DNA of 32,490 nt from Candidatus Chisholmbacteria bacterium RIFCSPLOWO2_01_FULL_49_14 (GTDB lineage: Bacteria; Patescibacteriota; Microgenomatia; UBA1400; Chisholmbacteraceae): assembly GCA_001816915.1 (NCBI GenBank), contig MHCL01000017.1, positions 1 to 32,490 of the forward strand. Reading direction: 5' to 3'. Below the pieces are notes generated by a model, which made no database searches, was not told the DNA's origin, and saw nothing but the letters and a program-made list of their open reading frames with translations. Below are positions 2,213-28,046 of this stretch, one piece after another (position 1 is the first letter of the stretch; each line of letters opens with the position of its first letter). The translations under genes were made by a program, and so were the position numbers.

Positions 2213-2216
2213 AAAT

Positions 2217-2244
2217 ATAGCTTATAGCTTATAGCTTTTAGCTT
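2217..2244. repeat. Heptamer array (atagctt)x3 + ttagctt
   Basis: Four consecutive 7-nt units. Confidence 0.9.
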
Positions 2245-2274
2245 TTGAGGCTTCTGGAAGAAACTTTTTTTCTT

Positions 2275-7780: not shown

Positions 7781-7800
7781 CCTGCCTGTCGGCAGGCAGG
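7781..7800. repeat. Near-perfect palindrome CCTGCCTGTCGGCAGGCAGG (REP-like)
   Basis: 10+10 inverted repeat with one imperfect pair. Confidence 0.85.
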
Positions 7801-7846
7801 TTTGGCGGCAAATTCAAAAAATATGAACAGCATGCAATCATCAAAA

Positions 7847-9016: not shown

Positions 9017-11206
9017 ATGGAACAGCGCGTTATTCTCGAGCTGCGAAATCCCAAAGATTCGGAAGAAACCCCGGAGGCTGCCGCCCAATTCTTCGCCGCC
9101 CTCCCCTACCTCAAATCCACGATTTGGCAGCATCTTGCCGGCACGCCGACTCCCATCTCCCTCGAGATAGCCACCATCAATCAAATCACCTATTTCATCA
9201 TGGTCATCCCCGCCGATGTCCAACAATATATCGAGTCGCAACTCTCCGCCTCCTACCCAAAGATCATCGTTTCGACAATCAAGGACTATCTTCCGGAAGT
9301 TGCCCAACTGAAACATCCCTCCGCCGCGCAATTGGTCCTCACATCCGCTTCTTATTTTCCCATTAAAACCTACAAAGAATTAAAAGACGTCGATCCCTTG
9401 GCAACCATTCTGGGCACCATGGCTAAAGCCCAAGCCGATGACTTCATGCTGGTTCAGTATCTGGTGAGTCCGGCTCCCAGAAATTGGCAATCAGCAGGAG
9501 CAAGCGCTGTAGAAAAGGGAGTGCCAGTCGTTGGCGGCGAACCGGGTGAGACCAAATCCCATCCGCAAAAAGATTTAATCGACCAGAAAATTTCGGAAAC
9601 CGGCTTCCGTGTGGGCATTAAACTCCTTACCGATTCCGAATCCAAATCGCGTTCCCAGCAGCTCTTGCAAAACCTCTCCGGTTCCTTCGGCTCCTTTTCC
9701 ATCGGCGAAGGCAATAGCCTGGGCCTCAAATACCCCCTGTTATCCAAGAAACAATTTCTGGCTTCCATCATCAGGCGTACCTTTCGTCATACGGCCGCGA
9801 GAAACTATCTGAATATATCAGAACTAGCCACACTATATCATCTTCCCAACCTGACGCTCTCAAAAATCAAGAACGTTGCCTGGGGGGCAAGCCTCCTCGG
9901 AGAACCGCCGGAAAATCTCCCGGTAGCCATGAATTTGACCGACGAGGAAAAGCGCGAAATCAACTTCATCGCCAGAACCGAATATAAAAATCGCACGCAG
10001 ATTTTCGGGATCAAACGGGAAGACCGCCGCCGGCACGTCTACGTCATCGGGAAGACCGGTACCGGAAAATCAACCCTCATCGCCAACCTCGCGATCGCCG
10101 ATATGCGAAACGGCGAAGGGGTAGCGGTGATCGACCCCCACGGGGATCTTTCCGAAATCCTTCTCGACTATATTCCCTCAAGCCGCATCAACGACGTCAT
10201 CTACTTTGATCCTTCCGACAGTGCCCGCGTCGTCCGCCTGAACCCCCTGGAAGTTACCGACCCAGCCCACGCCGAACTGGTGGCTTCCGGTATCGTCTCT
10301 ATCTTCTACAAGCTCTATTCCTACTCCTGGGGACCAAGGCTCGAATATATCCTGCGCAATACCCTCCTGACGCTCGTGCAGCGGCCAAACTCGACGCTGG
10401 ATGACGTTCCCCGGATGCTCACCGATGATTCCTTCCGCCAATCGGTCTTGGATAAGCTGCCGGATGATGTCCTGAAAGATTTCTGGATGCGGGAATACGC
10501 CAAAATGAACGAAAAACTGCGCAGTGAAGCCATCTCGCCGATCCTCAACAAAGTCGGCCAGTTCGTCACCAGCCCCACGATCCGCGGGGTGATCAGCTCG
10601 CCGGTCTCCTCAGTCAACCTTGAAGATCTGATGAACAACGGAAAAATTTTGATCGCCAATCTCGCGCAGGGAAAACTGGGAGAGGACAACGCCGCGCTCT
10701 TGGGCGCGATGCTCATCACCCGTTTGCAGCTGGCCGCCATGAACAGGATTAATATCCCGGAAAGCGAGCGCCGTGACTTCTTCCTCTACGTCGATGAGTT
10801 TCAGAACTTCGCGACGACGAGCTTCATCAAAATCCTCTCCGAGGCGAGGAAGTACCGATTGAACCTCATCCTCGCCAACCAGTATATGGCACAGCTTGTT
10901 GAAGAGCTTGAGAAAGCGATCTTCGGAAACATCGGCACGCTGGTGAGCTTCCTGGTCGGTGCGGAGGACGCGGCACGGCTCATGAAAGAATTCGGCGGCA
11001 TCTACACTGAAGAGGATCTCGTCAATTTGGGAAAATTCCAGATTGTGGCCAAACTCTCCATTGACAATGCGACGTCCGCGCCCTTTCCGGCCATAACCCT
11101 GCCTCTCCCCAAATCAAAAAACCAAAATCGCAAAAAAGTCCTGCGCGTCTCAAGCGAGCGCTACGCCAGACCGGTAAAAATAAACCCCCTCGGGCCGGAA
11201 GAATGA
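9017..11206 (+). CDS. VirD4/TraG/HerA-like DNA-translocation ATPase (type IV secretion/conjugation-type coupling ATPase)
   Basis: Walker A VIGKTGTGKSTLIANLAI, VAVIDPHGDL, LYVDEFQNF Walker B-like, ANQYMAQL. Confidence 0.85.
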   Translation: MEQRVILELRNPKDSEETPEAAAQFFAALPYLKSTIWQHLAGTPTPISLEIATINQITYFIMVIPADVQQYIESQLSASYPKIIVSTIKDYLPEVAQLKHPSAAQLVLTSASYFPIKTYKELKDVDPLATILGTMAKAQADDFMLVQYLVSPAPRNWQSAGASAVEKGVPVVGGEPGETKSHPQKDLIDQKISETGFRVGIKLLTDSESKSRSQQLLQNLSGSFGSFSIGEGNSLGLKYPLLSKKQFLASIIRRTFRHTAARNYLNISELATLYHLPNLTLSKIKNVAWGASLLGEPPENLPVAMNLTDEEKREINFIARTEYKNRTQIFGIKREDRRRHVYVIGKTGTGKSTLIANLAIADMRNGEGVAVIDPHGDLSEILLDYIPSSRINDVIYFDPSDSARVVRLNPLEVTDPAHAELVASGIVSIFYKLYSYSWGPRLEYILRNTLLTLVQRPNSTLDDVPRMLTDDSFRQSVLDKLPDDVLKDFWMREYAKMNEKLRSEAISPILNKVGQFVTSPTIRGVISSPVSSVNLEDLMNNGKILIANLAQGKLGEDNAALLGAMLITRLQLAAMNRINIPESERRDFFLYVDEFQNFATTSFIKILSEARKYRLNLILANQYMAQLVEELEKAIFGNIGTLVSFLVGAEDAARLMKEFGGIYTEEDLVNLGKFQIVAKLSIDNATSAPFPAITLPLPKSKNQNRKKVLRVSSERYARPVKINPLGPEE

Positions 11207-15143: not shown

Positions 15144-15176
15144 CCCTAAACCCTAACTCCTAACCCCTAAAACCTA
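15144..15176. repeat. Heptamer array ccctaaa/ccctaac/tcctaac/ccctaaa/acctact
   Basis: Period 7. Confidence 0.85.
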
Positions 15177-15188
15177 CTTCTTCTCTAC

Positions 15189-15226
15189 TATAAGCTATAA
15201 GCTAAAACCTAACCCCTAATCCCTAT
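15189..15226. repeat. Heptamer array tataagc/tataagc/taaaacc/taacccc/taatccc
   Basis: Period 7. Confidence 0.85.
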
Positions 15227-15713: not shown

Positions 15714-15752
15714 AATGATAAATGAGTAATGAGTAATGAGTAATGAGTAATA
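15714..15752. repeat. Heptamer array (aatgagt)n immediately upstream of ndk
   Basis: aatgata + 4 x aatgagt + partial unit. Confidence 0.95.
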
Positions 15753-19562: not shown

Positions 19563-21359
19563 TTACATCTTCCGGGGAGCTTTGATACCAAGAAGAAAAA
19601 GCCCATTGGAAAGTATCTGCGAAACAGCGGTTGTCAGCTGCATCCGAAATGCCCGAACCCCTTTTTCTTTTGCCTGAAGGATCCGATGCTTGTTGTAGAA
19701 CGCGTTGAAACGCTGCGCCAGCTCAAAGAGATATCCGCAGATGACGTTGGGGGAAAATTCTTGAGCCGCCAGATCCACCGCCTCGGGATATCGATAGAGC
19801 CAGCGCAAAATGCTGAGTTCCTCAGCATTCAATTGAATACCTTTAAAGGATCCTACTTTAAAGGTTGAGTTTTTTGCTTGAGAAAGTACGCTTCGCGCTC
19901 TTGCGTACGTATACTGGAGATACGGCCCGCTGTTGCCCTCAAAACTGACCGACTCCTTGAAGTCAAACACAATATCCCGACCGATACTGCTCTTGAGGAG
20001 TGCGTACTTAACAGCCCCCAACCCGACCGTCTCCGCCACGGAATCCTGAATTGACTTATCAAGAGATCCGGCCTTTTGAATAATCTCCGTCACCCCGCCC
20101 TTTGCCTCATCCAAGAGCCACTCACCGGTTATCACATCTCCTGTTCTCGATGACATCTTTCCTCCCGGCAACCGTACCATCCCGTGCGAAATATGTTTCG
20201 TCTTCTGCCCGAGGGCCGGATTGATGAGTGAAAGGGCTTTCAGGACTACACGAAAATATTCATCGACTTCGTTACCGGTGATGATGACCGACTCATCAAA
20301 GGCAAAATCTTGGTACTTCGTGAGTGCCAAACCCAAATCCTTCGCCTCATAGGTCGGCAAACCCTGGGAATTAATGAACACTCTGGTATGCAGGCCATGC
20401 TTTTCTCCGGGGAAAACAATGGCACCCTGGCTCTCCTCGAAGATCCCATCCTTCAAATGTTGTTTGACGAGTTCCAGCCCAATCTTCCCAGCCTCCCGCT
20501 CGAAGTAGTAAAAATCGAATGCGGTCCCTAACCGTTTGTAAATGGACTCGAAGTACTCAAGGCTCCACTCCCTTCCCTTGTTGTAAAGCTCCTGAATCTC
20601 AGGATCCTGTGCATAAATCTTTGAATTAAGTTCCTTAATCTCCTTTTTGGCCCCCTCATCTTCTTCATAGGCTCTCGCACCCATCGCATAAGCCCGTCCT
20701 AATATTTTTACCCGTTCTTCGAGCGCCTTTTTCTCCCACTTTTGAATTTGTAATTTGGAATTTTGAATTTGCAAAAGCCCAAAAATGGCTTTGGCAACAT
20801 GCAGCCCGACATCACCCTGATAGTTTGCCCGCTTAACTGTGGCACCTGTCGCCTCCAGTAACCGCGCCAATGACTCTCCGACAATGTTTGAGTACAAATG
20901 ACCGATATGAAATTCCTTAAATGGGTTGGGATCTGTGAATTCAAGGAGAATCTTTTTTCCTTTACCCAAAGCATTCTCTCCATATTTATCTCCCAGATCT
21001 AAAATGCGTTTGAGTTCATCCAACAAAAAGTGTTCGGATATCCAAAAATTGATAAATCCCGGACCCGCTACCTCCACTTTGTGGAGAAATCCGAAATCCG
21101 AAATCCGAAATTCGAAATAGTCAGCAATCGCCTTTGCAATTTCCCTAGGAGTTTTATAGGGAGCAACCTGTGAGATTTTTTCATGCTTCATGCTTCGTGC
21201 TTCGTGCCTATGAAGTTGCTGGTGCAACTTCAGTGCGACATTCGTTGCATAGTCCCCATGCGCTTCATCCGCCGGATGCTCTAATGTTATATCTACCTGA
21301 GGAAGATTTAAGGCCTTCAACGCTTTTTTTATCTGAAGCTTCAGCTCATCTACAAACAT
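19563..21359 (-). CDS. argS: Arginyl-tRNA synthetase
   Basis: FTDPNPFKEFHIGHLYSNIVGESLARLLEATG, KMSSRTGDVIT, DALR-type C-terminus; start moved to MFVDELK. Confidence 0.95.
   Translation of the reverse strand: MFVDELKLQIKKALKALNLPQVDITLEHPADEAHGDYATNVALKLHQQLHRHEARSMKHEKISQVAPYKTPREIAKAIADYFEFRISDFGFLHKVEVAGPGFINFWISEHFLLDELKRILDLGDKYGENALGKGKKILLEFTDPNPFKEFHIGHLYSNIVGESLARLLEATGATVKRANYQGDVGLHVAKAIFGLLQIQNSKLQIQKWEKKALEERVKILGRAYAMGARAYEEDEGAKKEIKELNSKIYAQDPEIQELYNKGREWSLEYFESIYKRLGTAFDFYYFEREAGKIGLELVKQHLKDGIFEESQGAIVFPGEKHGLHTRVFINSQGLPTYEAKDLGLALTKYQDFAFDESVIITGNEVDEYFRVVLKALSLINPALGQKTKHISHGMVRLPGGKMSSRTGDVITGEWLLDEAKGGVTEIIQKAGSLDKSIQDSVAETVGLGAVKYALLKSSIGRDIVFDFKESVSFEGNSGPYLQYTYARARSVLSQAKNSTFKVGSFKGIQLNAEELSILRWLYRYPEAVDLAAQEFSPNVICGYLFELAQRFNAFYNKHRILQAKEKGVRAFRMQLTTAVSQILSNGLFLLGIKAPRKM
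19837..19866 (-). repeat. 30-bp palindromic element in frame within argS (encodes TFKVGSFKGI)
   Basis: atacctttaaaggatcctactttaaaggtt aligns without gaps to 26291-26320. Confidence 0.9.
20739..20771 (-). repeat. Heptamer array in argS coding region (QIQNSKLQIQ)
   Basis: aatttgt/aatttgg/aattttg/aatttgc. Confidence 0.85.
21085..21118 (-). repeat. Heptamer array in argS coding region (FEFRISDFGF)
   Basis: gaaatcc x3 / gaaattc / gaaatag. Confidence 0.95.
21181..21208 (-). repeat. Heptamer array in argS coding region (RHEARSMKHE)
   Basis: catgctt x2 / cgtgctt / cgtgcct. Confidence 0.95.
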
Positions 21360-22122: not shown

Positions 22123-23028
22123 CTAATTGACCACCCAATACTTCTTTCCGTCAGAATCGACTTCGACGTCTCCGGAAATGTCGGTACGCAGAATCCGTGC
22201 CCCAACCTGATCCAAACGCATCAAAGTCTCCTGCGTCGGATGCCCGAATCGATTTTGTGCGCCGACGGAGATAATCCCCAATGCGGGATGCACCGCGTCC
22301 AAGAATTCCGCTGATGATGCGTATTTAGACCCGTGATGCCCGACTTTTAAAAGCTCAACCTTTCCAAGCACTCCATCGGCAACGAGTGCTTCCTCCGTAG
22401 AAAATCCGATATCGCCGACAAATAAAGCATCAAAATCCCCATACGTTAGTCTCGTAACGATCGAAGTTTCATTGATGTCCCCCTGATGGGTTGCTGCCCC
22501 CAAGATAGTTCCTCCGGTCTCAGGCTGCCACACCTCTGCCAAGCCGACCTGGTTACCGGGCCAAAGAACTGAAAGCTCAAACTCTCCTATGCGGATGATA
22601 TCACCACGGGATGGCAGATGAATGGAAGCTCCTTCCTTAAAAACGGCATCTTGAAATGCCCGAAAACCGGCGGTGTCATTGACAACCCCATTGACGATAA
22701 CCTGTTCAACGGCAAAGCGATCAAGAACGTCGACTAAGCCATTCATATGATCAGCCTGAGGGTGAGTTAAAACCACCACTTCGAGCGTCCTATCCCAGAA
22801 AGGAATGTGCTGCGACAGGCAATCCAAGACTTTGCTGTCGGGACCTCCGTCGATAAGCACCTGAGAAGATTGAGAGGACAGTAAGATCGCGTCTCCTTGA
22901 CCGACATCACAGGCAATGACGTGGGCATACTGATCGGGTAAGGAACGGATAATCCCGAAAAATAATCCTATTCCGATTGCGAAAATCAAGAAAATAATCC
23001 GAGGTATGGGATTTGCGCCGCTCATCAC
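22123..23028 (-). CDS. ComEC C-terminal-like metallo-beta-lactamase domain protein (separate polypeptide)
   Basis: IACDVGQGDAILLSS, VLIDGGPDSKVLDCL, VVVLTHPQADHMNGL, LKVGHHGSKYASS. Confidence 0.9.
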   Translation of the reverse strand: MMSGANPIPRIIFLIFAIGIGLFFGIIRSLPDQYAHVIACDVGQGDAILLSSQSSQVLIDGGPDSKVLDCLSQHIPFWDRTLEVVVLTHPQADHMNGLVDVLDRFAVEQVIVNGVVNDTAGFRAFQDAVFKEGASIHLPSRGDIIRIGEFELSVLWPGNQVGLAEVWQPETGGTILGAATHQGDINETSIVTRLTYGDFDALFVGDIGFSTEEALVADGVLGKVELLKVGHHGSKYASSAEFLDAVHPALGIISVGAQNRFGHPTQETLMRLDQVGARILRTDISGDVEVDSDGKKYWVVN

Positions 23029-24320
23029 TCGTCCCTCCTCTTGACTTGAATAACCGCCCGTGCAGGATGTCGGTTACTCTTCCATATCCAGAAAAACATC
23101 AGCGCGTAGTATGCGGCAACCCACCAGGCAGAATGAGAGGAAATGCTGATCGGGCGAAGCGGAAGTCCGTCAAACCAATTCACCACCACAATAAAAGCTT
23201 CCAACGGAACCCAGGCTAAGAGGGCAACGACTCGAGCCATATCCAGCCAGAGAAAACCGGCACCGGCCAGCAGTCCCCCAAAACCCATGATCACTGGAAC
23301 CAAATTCACGACAATCAGATTCACCAGAGGAGAAATCCAACTCACGCTCCCGAAATGGACCAGAAGGATGGGCAACACTGACAGTTGTGCGCCAAGTGTC
23401 ACTCCAAGATCCTCTGTGAGGTTTCTCCCAAGTAATCGGACGCCTCTGGCAAGCAGCGGAGTAAGTGTCGGTGTGAGCGCCAAAATGCCGAAGGTAGCCG
23501 CCACCGACAGTTGAAATCCAACATCATAGATCAGCAGTGGCGAGATCAACGCCATAAGCATTGATGTCAGTAAAAGCACCCATAATCCATGATATTGCTT
23601 GCCGAGAAACTGCGCGATAAACGCCAGTGATCCCATAATCGCGGCGCGAATAATCGGCGGTTCACCTCCGGCCATGATGGTATAAAGGATAATTCCCAAA
23701 ATCGCCAGAGGTAACACCCACCGCCTGTTGAGGAATTGCCCGAGCATGGTCATCAACAGTCCCGCCACCACCGAAACGTTATACCCGGAAGCGACAATCA
23801 CATGGATGGTGCCCGTTTGCCGCAGCGCTCGTTCGAAATCCTGCGCTAAACTTCGATGCACCCCTAAAACCACTCCTGCTGTCAGCGAGGCGTGCGGTTC
23901 GGGCAGTAAATCTGAGAAAATCTCTTGGAGACTTTGTCTCACCCCGTAGATCGAAGCGATGATCCGAATCGCCAGCGGACTTGCAACTCCATTCGTCTCC
24001 TGCAGTATGCGAATTTCTGGATAGATCAACCATAGTTCCGTTTGTCCGGAATCTGTCAGCCGTTCTTGGATATTGCCAATCAGTTGTACATGATCACCAT
24101 ACGAGAACCTCGGAAATGGTTCAGAGAGTACTTGGAAGCGTTCAATACGCATGATCTGTATTGATGCTTTTAGATATGGTTGTGAAGTCACATATCCTTG
24201 AATCCTTACCATGCTGTCGTTGGGGATCACATCGGTTGAATAGAGCGCTGCATGGTAGCGTAGAACCCACAGACCGGATAGTGCAATCAATAGCGTACTT
24301 ATTATAATAATACGCATCAT
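23025..24320 (-). CDS. comEC: ComEC/Rec2 competence membrane channel domain protein
   Basis: LTAGVVLGVHRSLAQDFERALRQTGTIHVIVASGYNVSVVAGL, GGEPPIIRAAIMG; multi-TM; overlaps the MBL gene by ATGA. Confidence 0.9.
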   Translation of the reverse strand: MMRIIIISTLLIALSGLWVLRYHAALYSTDVIPNDSMVRIQGYVTSQPYLKASIQIMRIERFQVLSEPFPRFSYGDHVQLIGNIQERLTDSGQTELWLIYPEIRILQETNGVASPLAIRIIASIYGVRQSLQEIFSDLLPEPHASLTAGVVLGVHRSLAQDFERALRQTGTIHVIVASGYNVSVVAGLLMTMLGQFLNRRWVLPLAILGIILYTIMAGGEPPIIRAAIMGSLAFIAQFLGKQYHGLWVLLLTSMLMALISPLLIYDVGFQLSVAATFGILALTPTLTPLLARGVRLLGRNLTEDLGVTLGAQLSVLPILLVHFGSVSWISPLVNLIVVNLVPVIMGFGGLLAGAGFLWLDMARVVALLAWVPLEAFIVVVNWFDGLPLRPISISSHSAWWVAAYYALMFFWIWKSNRHPARAVIQVKRRDE

Positions 24321-24420
24321 AATAGATCAAGTTTATCGTCGTTTGGCAACCGACTCGCAGGAATAGCAATCGATGTTTTTATGAGAATTCCTGCGCATTC
24401 CGGAGCATGAGATAAGCTGG

Positions 24421-25056
24421 TTAATAAAGCGAAATTTGAGATTTGATGCGTTCAAAAACATTTTTTGGGATACCTGCCTTGGATGTCAATTCGGAAAGAT
24501 CTCCGTACGGCCGATTGTCGACGATCGCCTGCGCCCGCTTTTCACCAATTCCCCAGAGAGAATCCAACTCCGCGAGGCTTGCCGTGTTAACATTTATCGT
24601 TTGGGTTTGATATCCAATCACCGCCCCACCGGCATCCGCCGGATTGTTTGAACCAAGAGTTTCTGCCGACAGATCTTCAGAAACGGTTGGAATATAAAGC
24701 TTGATGCCATCCGATAACAATTGTGCAAGATTGATATACTTCTCCACCCAATTCCGATCGGCATCCGCGGAAAATCCGCCGGCGGCAACCAACGCATCAT
24801 TCACTCGAGCCTCTCGGGGAAGACGGTAGAGTCCTGGTTTCTCAACGGCGCCTGCCACATCGACAACAATTTCTAGAGTACCGCTGGGCTCTGCCTCTTG
24901 AACAGGAATGATCTCAACCGTCGGTTTACTTCGGTTTATCGCGATGGTAACAGCGGAAAGCACACCCACGCCCAGCAGAAAGAGGCCTATCAGGGCAAGA
25001 AGCAGCGTCACCCGGTGTTCCTCAAAAACCCGATCGAGGTTGAGCAGGAAATTCAT
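24421..25056 (-). CDS. comEA: ComEA-like DNA-binding protein (SLBB + helix-hairpin-helix)
   Basis: DVAGAVEKPGLYRLPREARVNDALVAAGGF and INVNTASLAELDSLWGIGEKRAQAIVDNRP. Confidence 0.9.
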   Translation of the reverse strand: MNFLLNLDRVFEEHRVTLLLALIGLFLLGVGVLSAVTIAINRSKPTVEIIPVQEAEPSGTLEIVVDVAGAVEKPGLYRLPREARVNDALVAAGGFSADADRNWVEKYINLAQLLSDGIKLYIPTVSEDLSAETLGSNNPADAGGAVIGYQTQTINVNTASLAELDSLWGIGEKRAQAIVDNRPYGDLSELTSKAGIPKNVFERIKSQISLY

Positions 25057-25071: not shown

Positions 25072-27756
25072 TTATGATAAGACGAAATTGACCAGTTTTC
25101 CCTTGACCCAAATGATTGCTTTGGGGTTTTCCGCAGTTACATACGGCAAAACACCCTTCACTTCTCTTGCAAGCGCGATAAGCTTCTCTTTATTTTCCGA
25201 ATCTTTCGCGGAAACGCTAAATTTCCCCCGCAATTTTCCATTGACTTGCACGACAATCTCAACTTCTTTAAATTGCGTCAGTTGCTCGTCAAAGCTGGGC
25301 CATTCGGCCACATGGATGCTGGAAAAGCTAGCTTTTGCTTCTTCTTTTTGTTGGATTACCTGCCATAATTCTTCGCTGATATGTGGGGAAAAAGGGGCAA
25401 GCAACTTGAGGAAGCTTCCGCAATCTTCTCTTGAAAGGCTTCCCCCATCTTCCCATTCATTGACGAACTCCATTAAAAACGCAATGGCGGTATTAAATTT
25501 AAACTTGCCGATGTCCTCCGTTACTTTTTGAATCGTCCGATGTAACGATCGCTCTAAATCCCTATTTGAATTTTTCCCTAATTTTGAATTTTTCAGTTGT
25601 AATTTTGAATTATCTTGATAGAGTTTCCAGACTCGCGTCAGGAATCTGTACATCCCTGCGATCCCGGTATCTTGAAAATCTCCACCCAAATCATAGGGTC
25701 CTAAGAACATCAAATACAATCTTAATGTATCAGAACCAAACTTATTGATATAGTCATCAGGGATAACGACGTTTCCCCGGCTTTTACTCATCTTCGCCCC
25801 GTCCTTGATGATCAAACCATGACTGAACAAGAAGGGAAATGGTTCCTCAAACGGGAGGTAATCCCAGTCATGAAGCGCCATGGTTACAAACCTGCTGTAG
25901 AGAAGGTGCAGCACCGCATGTTCGGCTCCGCCGATATAGGCGTCAACAGGTAACCACGACCTTGTGACCTCTTGATCCCAAGGAATCTCGAAATTCGAAT
26001 CTCGAAATTCGAAACGATTTGATATCTCCCCGTTTCGTGTTTCGTGCTTCGAATTTTTAAGGTTGACCGAAGGATATCTCAAAAAGTACCACGAGCTATC
26101 CAGAAAAGTGTCGGAAACATCCGTCTCCCGCTTCGCTCGTCCTCCGCACTGAGGGCATTTGGTGTACAACCAACTCTCGGGCGCTTTCTCGAGCGGGGCT
26201 TTGCCGTCTCCGGCGGGTCTGACGTTTTCGTAGCTCATCTCCGGCAGCAACACTGGAAGCTCCTCTTCGGAAGCCGGCCACCAACCGGCCATACCTTTAA
26301 GGTATCCTCCTTTAAAGGTTCTACCCCGCTTGGCACACTGCTGACAAAATAGCATCGGAATCGGAGGTCCCCAATACCGCTGACGGGAGATGAGCCAGTC
26401 CCGCAGGTGATAGCTGACAGCCTTCCTCCCGGCTTTCTTTGCCTCCAAATCCCTGAGTATCCCCTTCATCGCCTCTTGTGAACTGTATCCGTCATACAGC
26501 CCGGAGCCAACAAGTGTCCCGTACTCAGTAACCGCGACGTCTGCCACACTCTTCCCGGCAACTTCAATCACCTTTCGGATCGGTAAATGATGTTGCGAGG
26601 CAAACTCGTAATCCCGCTGATCATGCGCCGGAACTCCCATTACCGCCCCGGTGCCGTAATCCTTGAGCACAAACTCCGCAATCCAAATCGGTATGGGTTC
26701 ACCGGTCAACGGATGTTCACCGCGAAGTCCGCTGTCAACTCCCGTTTTCTCTTTCTCTGCCGCTTGACGCTTCTGCTCCGTCTTCTTGAGCGCCCCCTCG
26801 ATATAGCTCTTCACTTCTCTCAACTTTGAACTTTGAATTTTAAATTTTGAATTTAGGAGCGAAGCGACGATTGGGTGCTCCGGCGCCACCACCAGAAAGG
26901 TGACCCCGAATATCGTATCAAGACGGGTGGTGAAAGTGGTGATTGTCCTCCCCTTTCCGTAGTTCCAGTCAATCTCAGTGCCTTCGCTCTTGCCGATCCA
27001 ATTCCTCTGCGCGATCTTAATCTTCTCCGGCCAGCGCAATCCGACCAGGCGGGGATCGTATCCCTTTGGCATTGGCCTGAACTGTGTACGAATAACCCCA
27101 TTGTTTCCGGTTTCCTGTTTCTTCTTTCCTGTGCCATCGATATTATCAAGCAGTCGCTGCGCGTACTCAGTGATCTTAAAGAACCACTGCTCGGTTTCCC
27201 TGCGCGTCGTCTCACTTCCACAGCGTTCACATCTCCCGCCCTCGACTTGCTCATCCGCAAGGACAGTCTTGCATGATGGACACCAGTTGACCATCGCCTT
27301 CTTGCGAACGGCCAACCCGTGCTTGAACATCTGCACAAATAACCACTGCGTCCACTTGTAGTATTTAGGATCGTAGGTCTCAAGTTTCTGATCCCAAGCA
27401 AACCCATTTCCGATTGCGGACAGCTGCTCATAGAAGCGCCGTTCAGAAACCTTCGCCTGCTCCGCCGGATGCTTGCCGATGCTGATGGCGTAATTTTCCG
27501 AGTGAATGCCAAATCCGTCCAAACCGATGGGTTCAAAGATATCGTATCCCTGCATGCGCTGGTATCGCCCGTAGACGTCTGCTCCGGTGAACGCGTACAT
27601 ATTCCCGACATGCAGCCCCTCAGCCGACGGGTATGGGAACATCATGAGGTTGAAGAAAGGCTTCTTGGCTTTGCGAAGATCAGGCTGATAAATACCCGCT
27701 TCTTTCCACTTCTTCTGCCATTTGACTTCAATCTTTCTGTGATCGTATACGTCCAT
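25072..27756 (-). CDS. leuS: Leucyl-tRNA synthetase
   Basis: MMFPYPSAEGLHVGNMYAFTGADVYGRYQRMQGYDIFEPIGLDGFG, KMSKSRGNVV, CP1 editing domain GAVMGVPAHDQRD. Confidence 0.97.
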   Translation of the reverse strand: MDVYDHRKIEVKWQKKWKEAGIYQPDLRKAKKPFFNLMMFPYPSAEGLHVGNMYAFTGADVYGRYQRMQGYDIFEPIGLDGFGIHSENYAISIGKHPAEQAKVSERRFYEQLSAIGNGFAWDQKLETYDPKYYKWTQWLFVQMFKHGLAVRKKAMVNWCPSCKTVLADEQVEGGRCERCGSETTRRETEQWFFKITEYAQRLLDNIDGTGKKKQETGNNGVIRTQFRPMPKGYDPRLVGLRWPEKIKIAQRNWIGKSEGTEIDWNYGKGRTITTFTTRLDTIFGVTFLVVAPEHPIVASLLNSKFKIQSSKLREVKSYIEGALKKTEQKRQAAEKEKTGVDSGLRGEHPLTGEPIPIWIAEFVLKDYGTGAVMGVPAHDQRDYEFASQHHLPIRKVIEVAGKSVADVAVTEYGTLVGSGLYDGYSSQEAMKGILRDLEAKKAGRKAVSYHLRDWLISRQRYWGPPIPMLFCQQCAKRGRTFKGGYLKGMAGWWPASEEELPVLLPEMSYENVRPAGDGKAPLEKAPESWLYTKCPQCGGRAKRETDVSDTFLDSSWYFLRYPSVNLKNSKHETRNGEISNRFEFRDSNFEIPWDQEVTRSWLPVDAYIGGAEHAVLHLLYSRFVTMALHDWDYLPFEEPFPFLFSHGLIIKDGAKMSKSRGNVVIPDDYINKFGSDTLRLYLMFLGPYDLGGDFQDTGIAGMYRFLTRVWKLYQDNSKLQLKNSKLGKNSNRDLERSLHRTIQKVTEDIGKFKFNTAIAFLMEFVNEWEDGGSLSREDCGSFLKLLAPFSPHISEELWQVIQQKEEAKASFSSIHVAEWPSFDEQLTQFKEVEIVVQVNGKLRGKFSVSAKDSENKEKLIALAREVKGVLPYVTAENPKAIIWVKGKLVNFVLS
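25563..25612 (-). repeat. Heptamer-type array in leuS coding region (DNSKLQLKNSKLGKNSNR)
   Basis: aattttg/aattttt/cagttgt/aattttg/aattatc. Confidence 0.8.
25984..26060 (-). repeat. Two adjacent heptamer arrays in leuS coding region (LKNSKHETRNGEISNRFEFRDSNFEI)
   Basis: cgaaatt/cgaatct/cgaaatt/cgaaacg and gtttcgt/gtttcgt/gcttcga. Confidence 0.9.
26291..26320 (-). repeat. 30-bp palindromic element in frame within leuS (encodes TFKGGYLKGM)
   Basis: atacctttaaggtatcctcctttaaaggtt; matches the argS copy. Confidence 0.9.
26821..26855 (-). repeat. Heptamer array in leuS coding region (LNSKFKIQSSKL)
   Basis: aactttg x2 / aatttta / aattttg / aatttag. Confidence 0.9.
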
Positions 27757-27804
27757 ACTCCTTACTCCTTACTCCTTACTCCTTACTCCTTACTCCTTAC
27801 TCCC
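27757..27804 (-). repeat. Heptamer array (actcctt)6 directly abutting the leuS start codon
   Basis: Six perfect units plus a partial unit. Confidence 0.97.
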
Positions 27805-27872: not shown

Positions 27873-27948
27873 GGGCCTATAGCTCAGCTGGCAGAGCGCT
27901 GCATTCGCATTGCAGAGGTCGCCGGTTCGATTCCGGCTAGGTCCACCA
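27873..27948 (+). tRNA. tRNA-Ala(CGC), CCA encoded
   Basis: GGGCCTA...TAGGTCC acceptor; CTGCA-TTCGCAT-TGCAG anticodon arm. Confidence 0.95.
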
Positions 27949-27968
27949 AGTCAGACTTGGTCCACCAA

Positions 27969-28041
27969 GGGCCGTTAGCTCAGCTGGTAGAGCGTTTGCA
28001 TGGCATGCAAAAGGTCAGCGGTTCGATCCCGCTACGGTCCA
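27969..28041 (+). tRNA. tRNA-Ala(GGC), CCA not encoded
   Basis: GGGCCGT...ACGGTCC acceptor; TTTGC-ATGGCAT-GCAAA anticodon arm. Confidence 0.95.
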
Positions 28042-28046
28042 CAAAA

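Follow-up and report, generated by a model that had tools for sequence, protein, structure and literature searches.

The argS gene, encoding arginyl-tRNA synthetase (ArgRS), is located on the reverse strand of the analyzed window, a 32,490-nt stretch of contig MHCL01000017.1 of Candidatus Chisholmbacteria bacterium RIFCSPLOWO2_01_FULL_49_14, and carries three short arrays of tandem 7-nt units that we named sites A, B and C (Table 1). The product was assigned to ArgRS by the NCBIfam profile TIGR00456 (402 bits, cut-off 262) and by the Pfam domains Arg_tRNA_synt_N, tRNA-synt_1d and DALR_1, all above their cut-offs; apart from the tracts it is the ordinary enzyme that the original prediction had described. 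Tandem Repeats Finder (TRF) located all three arrays, with limits that match those predicted, and 1000 codon shuffles of argS yielded not one period-7 tract as high as the weakest of the three real ones, placing them beyond chance. As predicted, the frame is kept throughout, all three tracts lying within one ORF of 598 aa.

A second array-bearing gene of the window is leuS; both ArgRS and the leucyl-tRNA synthetase LeuRS are essential. In the following, the genome of the window is labeled G000, a relative from the same family G001, and further relatives carry other G numbers. Other heptamer arrays occupy the leuS loop at 25983..26051 in G010 and G021, and in most relatives this loop is short; the weak array of leuS lies within a 31-aa in-frame insertion (residues about 208-238) that is absent from both same-family genomes and from nearly all order relatives aligned. 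Further heptamer arrays are intergenic.

Table 1 Array-bearing genes and heptamer arrays of the window.
Feature	Position	Strand	Remarks
argS, arginyl-tRNA synthetase	19563..21359	-	598 aa, ATG at 21359; TIGR00456, three Pfam domains
argS site C array, AAATTCA-type	20740..20771	-	QIQNSKLQIQ, residues ~197-207; TRF 20740-20771
argS site B array, ATTTCGG/ATTTCGA	~21085..21118	-	FEFRISDFGF, residues ~81-92; TRF 21086-21118
argS site A array, GCACGAA/GCATGAA	~21180..21208	-	RHEARSMKHE, residues 51-60; TRF 21180-21207
leuS, leucyl-tRNA synthetase	25072..27756	-	TIGR00396, 830 bits
Heptamer tracts in leuS loop	25983..26051	-	NLKNSKHETRN...RFEFRDSNFEIPW
Heptamer array in leuS	26822..26854	-	NSKFKIQSSKL; register and length match G001
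Weak heptamer array in leuS	27103..27128	-	within the 31-aa insertion
(TCCTTAC)n array	27752..27803	+	leuS start/upstream region
Intergenic array, (AATGAGT)n	15714..15751	+	
Intergenic array, (TATAGCT)n	2216..2246	+	
Intergenic arrays, CCCTAAA and CTATAAG types	15144..15225	+	

Elsewhere in the window, comEC consists of two adjacent ORFs (an N-terminal channel part and a Rec2 metallo-beta-lactamase part) with comEA adjoining (22123-25056), two tandem tRNA-Ala genes (CGC and GGC) at 27873-28042 are reported by TRF as a 96-bp repeat, and a palindrome-like sequence, CCTGCCTGTCGGCAGGCAGG (7781-7805), is read through to give the peptide PACRQAG of overlapping ORFs.

Array sites in the ArgRS of relatives

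The ArgRS sequences of 30 relatives, among them no genome of the same genus, were aligned. Their argS genes contain 26 period-7 tracts, compared with 0-3 at other periods, and all 26 are confined to five sites (A-E). One site often holds different units in different relatives, as at site C with AAATTCA in G000, AAGTTAA in G001, AAATCTC in G002 and AAAATCA in G021. The arrays do not fall on conserved core positions of ArgRS: the array-site columns have a mean conservation of 0.11 vs 0.54 for the whole gene, although site B aligns gap-free to the corresponding segment of array-free relatives.

The tracts had originally been interpreted as inserts, and their insertion as ongoing. However, the site B segment comprises 24 residues in most array-bearing as well as most array-free ArgRS, and the site C segment has a median of 38 residues whether or not an array is present; a clear increase in length is seen at site A alone (36 residues with an array, 21 without). 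Recent insertion into argS was therefore ruled out at B and C. Arrays of the same kind occupy sites A and B in both same-family genomes and are hence not recent but at least as old as the family, and they lend no support to ongoing insertion.

In an AlphaFold2 model of ArgRS (mean pLDDT 83.6; seven sequences in the input alignment), site A covers a helix end and a loop, with pLDDT values below 50 at residues 56-65, and site C lies in a loop between helices (pLDDT below 50 at 201-203), consistent with the loop position suggested for all three tracts. Site B, in contrast, is ordered, with block means of about 89-91, and extends from the end of a helix (71-84) over a short helix (86-89) to the approach to a core strand (92-98), an ordered helix-to-strand segment that rules out a loop position for this site. 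The ordered site B is also the one with strictly conserved length, whereas the loose-loop site A is length-variable.

Period-7 arrays across genomes and orthologs

The G000 sequence was rebuilt to 1,211,783 of 1,211,858 bases in 29 contigs and scanned for exact lag runs of at least 12 matches at periods 2 to 24. Period 7 yielded 67 runs, with echoes at 14 (12 runs) and 21 (10 runs), compared with 0-4 elsewhere and with no exact lag-7 run in a third-order Markov null sequence. A mismatch-tolerant scan (score of at least 10) detected 170 period-7 arrays vs 1-18 at periods 5, 6 and 8-11. Although genes account for 80% of the DNA according to a home-made gene caller, they hold only 42 of the 170 arrays (with an earlier version of this caller the split was 41 within genes, 23 in partial overlap and 106 between genes). 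G001 follows the same pattern, with 179 period-7 arrays in 951 kb, 52 of them in genes. As heptanucleotide simple sequence repeats should, these are tandem arrays of 7 nt beyond chance in both genomes, and in G000 they are enriched outside genes. Judged by eye from their translations, further array-bearing genes are valS-, tsaD-, mnmA-, miaA-, uppS-, lgt- and gdhA-like. In G000 and G001 together, strong genic arrays are narrowly distributed in size, 59 of 73 measuring 28-36 bp. Where paralogs within G000 were compared for a recent event, the heptamer array was common to the copies. Within the phylum the distribution is patchy: judged from 20 short samples, certain genomes have an excess of period 7 and others lack it.

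Octamer-type arrays (by eye, NNNTCAGA / NNNTCCGA and AACAATTA types) occur where relatives or paralogs have heptamers, namely at G000:C16 about 10450-10660 (L052), in the G001 ortholog of C3:24794 and in a sample of G012 (L183), which contains three period-8 arrays and no period-7 array. One of four paralogs has a 27-bp palindrome, CCCCAGTACCGTTCGGTACGGGGCAGG, that interrupts a CATGATT array midway and keeps the frame (G000:C10 about 95618-95648, L087).

The units themselves follow a preference. G000 contains 71 distinct units, which after rotation and orientation share a cyclic consensus of 3.27 bits vs 2.65 +/- 0.05 for column-permuted units; the G001 repeats reach 4.19 vs 2.92 bits, and in both genomes the consensus reads about RRRTTWA. 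In long arrays, departures cluster in a small subset of the seven positions (variance 76 vs 35 +/- 3.9). This combination of a shared consensus and position-specific deviations argues that the units are not random heptamers, and plain slippage of local sequence fails to predict them. Furthermore, one DNA unit occurs in both orientations relative to the reading frames of different genes, being translated as EIRNSKFE in one and as FEFRISNFEF in another, which points to a process acting on the DNA and not on the peptide.

The length-neutrality seen at two argS sites recurs in other genes. Among G000-G001 orthologs, 15 array sites are shared, 10 of them with a net length difference of 0, and the 21 sites with an array in only one genome show a median net change of 0 residues, 13 of them being within two residues of equal length and 3 gaining seven or more. 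This distribution differs from the +10 residues of an insertion (p=6e-5) and resembles that of array-free variable windows. Usually, then, the arrays take the place of resident variable protein segments without adding length; the clear 31-aa insertion in leuS is a counterpoint.

Where orthologous arrays are in register, their differences tend to recur in the same phase. At argS site B, all units are ATTTCGG in G001 and all are ATTTCGA in G002 (4/4 differences in one phase, p=0.0005), an uppS-like gene shows ten differences in two phases (p<5e-5) and leuS likewise shows in-phase differences (p=0.04); the pairs were picked and aligned by hand, making these p-values indicative. Judging from the sequences, such in-phase differences would be the pattern given by concerted evolution, and could alternatively reflect the independent origin of a different unit at the same tolerant site.

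Possible origins of the arrays

We consider it probable that the argS tracts belong to a genome-wide population of heptanucleotide simple sequence repeats that is written over tolerant segments by 7-nt misalignment. Because a seven-base unit shifts the frame unless the number of units changes by three or a multiple of it, growth one unit at a time is implausible in argS. The arrays would have required either several units in one step with a compensating loss, or length-neutral overwriting, and the length data favor the second or an equivalent process. Misalignment by 7 nt could occur during replication or repair, by slip-and-return or by misaligned template switching or gene conversion within an array, and with an in-register return it would overwrite and homogenize the sequence in a 7-base register. 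In an essential gene, the survivors would be those changes whose net length is a multiple of three and which are free of stops in all three frames, so that the places where arrays remain would be set by purifying selection acting on the frame, on stop codons and on what the protein tolerates. An ordered segment such as argS site B would then stay strictly length-neutral and a loose loop such as site A would be free to vary in length. No benefit of the tracts to ArgRS is implied. With regard to the conditions that may let slippage occur, the MutS domain MutS_V (PF00488) was not detected in G000, G001 or G002, and among 44 genomes of the order 5 have a match and 39 are without one. MutS acts poorly on 7-nt loops, however, and its absence may therefore be incidental.

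Instead of general misalignment, a dedicated or biased DNA process might write sequence near RRRTTWA in a 7-base register over resident DNA, the affected segments of essential proteins being rewritten in concert with length and frame fixed; we regard this as rather unlikely.

Less likely still is that a discrete mobile element of about four heptamers inserts in frame as a block, in the manner of Rickettsia palindromic elements, with later losses trimming the flanks. The uniform size of the strong genic arrays and the weak array within the leuS insertion fit this idea, as does the recurrence of the same units in unrelated genes and distant genomes, one 21-mer being found in 12 of 240 genomes of the phylum and its reversed control in none. 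Yet the net length change has its median at 0 and not at +10 aa, orthologous sites differ in their units, dozens of units exist rather than one, and no conserved flanks, inverted ends or palindromic fold were seen in the alignments read. The Rickettsia elements, as described in PMC10969869, likewise consist of repeated DNA that lies in metabolic genes and keeps their frame, but they are palindromic insertions of about 150 bp, whereas the arrays studied here are short, tandem and usually add no length; the increase in the length of array-bearing genes by about the length of the array, expected for such elements, was not observed among the G000-G001 orthologs.

Equally low is the credence we give to the arrays being sequence-specific DNA- or RNA-binding sites, kept for regulation or chromosome organization, with the genic copies tolerated or functional. 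The shared cyclic consensus with its position-specific degeneracy is compatible with binding sites, and a regulatory role has been proposed both for the four-unit heptamer elements of Geobacter (PMC2700814) and for the TAACTGA repeats of Beggiatoaceae (PMC4679880). Against it stand the multitude of distinct units in G000 and the complete change of unit at the same site between relatives.

The remaining alternatives are far weaker. Arrays occur in several synthetase genes, as would be expected if the peptides themselves were selected as useful low-complexity inserts, but the peptides that one DNA unit encodes on its two strands are unrelated, different peptides occupy the same site in relatives and arrays are depleted in genes, which leaves peptide selection very improbable. 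Phase-variable contingency repeats, which would turn genes on and off by frameshifts of +/-7, appear even less plausible: 7-bp repeats are tied to variable expression at the Haemophilus hmw loci, but argS and leuS are essential and open, and the orthologs aligned are in frame. An assembly artefact of this metagenome-derived genome, which is split into contigs, is the least credible possibility, since other, independent genomes have the same sites, among them G007 in one 1.05-Mb contig and G001 in an 866-kb contig.

Comparison with known heptamer repeats

Heptanucleotide simple sequence repeats are a known class in prokaryotes. Among long simple repeats, heptanucleotides are reported to be the most abundant category in the majority of prokaryotic genomes; they are phylogenetically scattered, and polymerase slippage has been proposed as their origin (Mrazek, Guo and Shah 2007, as cited in PMC4679880 and PMC4692102). 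The same survey, as cited there, noted units of a multiple of three nucleotides as the most probable ones within coding regions, whereas here arrays of a non-multiple of three recur in essential genes, at sites that are fixed and mostly length-neutral.

Geobacter metallireducens has 49 elements of four heptanucleotide repeats within and between genes (PMC2700814), and intragenic heptamers are therefore not new in themselves. These elements and the arrays described here are alike in consisting of four or so heptamers. However, the Geobacter elements follow one GC-rich consensus, GGACCGG, with a proposed role in regulatory RNA, while a unit shared in this way is not what we found: G000 has many units with an AT-rich consensus, and orthologous arrays change in concert. 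The TAACTGA repeats of marine Beggiatoaceae (PMC4679880) and the GGGNATC repeats of Xanthomonas and Nostoc (PMC4692102) are also heptamer arrays in mainly intergenic positions, and those of Xanthomonas vary in length and sequence between relatives, as here; yet in each of these studies one unit type dominates, and the Beggiatoaceae copies in ORFs are chiefly located at protein ends, unlike those described here. The ORF repeats of Borgs (PMC9879509) resemble our arrays in being rapidly evolving tandem repeats inside genes with an A-rich bias. Their unit lengths are all divisible by three and they tend to create disordered regions, whereas the present arrays have a unit of 7, are mostly length-neutral and in one case occupy an ordered segment. 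Within a limited search of the open-access literature, what seems to be new is that mostly length-neutral arrays recur at fixed sites of essential genes throughout a lineage and that their units change in concert.

Seven ought to be about the worst repeat unit for a coding sequence, as a change by one unit breaks the frame. The existence of fixed, mostly length-neutral sites in essential genes therefore speaks against genic arrays having grown in simple steps. Orthologous coding arrays also make the bacterial preference for seven bases testable, since selection fixes their length and exposes the copying of units. For annotation, peptides of this kind should be taken as a reflection of repeats in the DNA and not as domains of the predicted proteins. 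The case of argS shows how frame-wrecking repeats can persist in essential genes.
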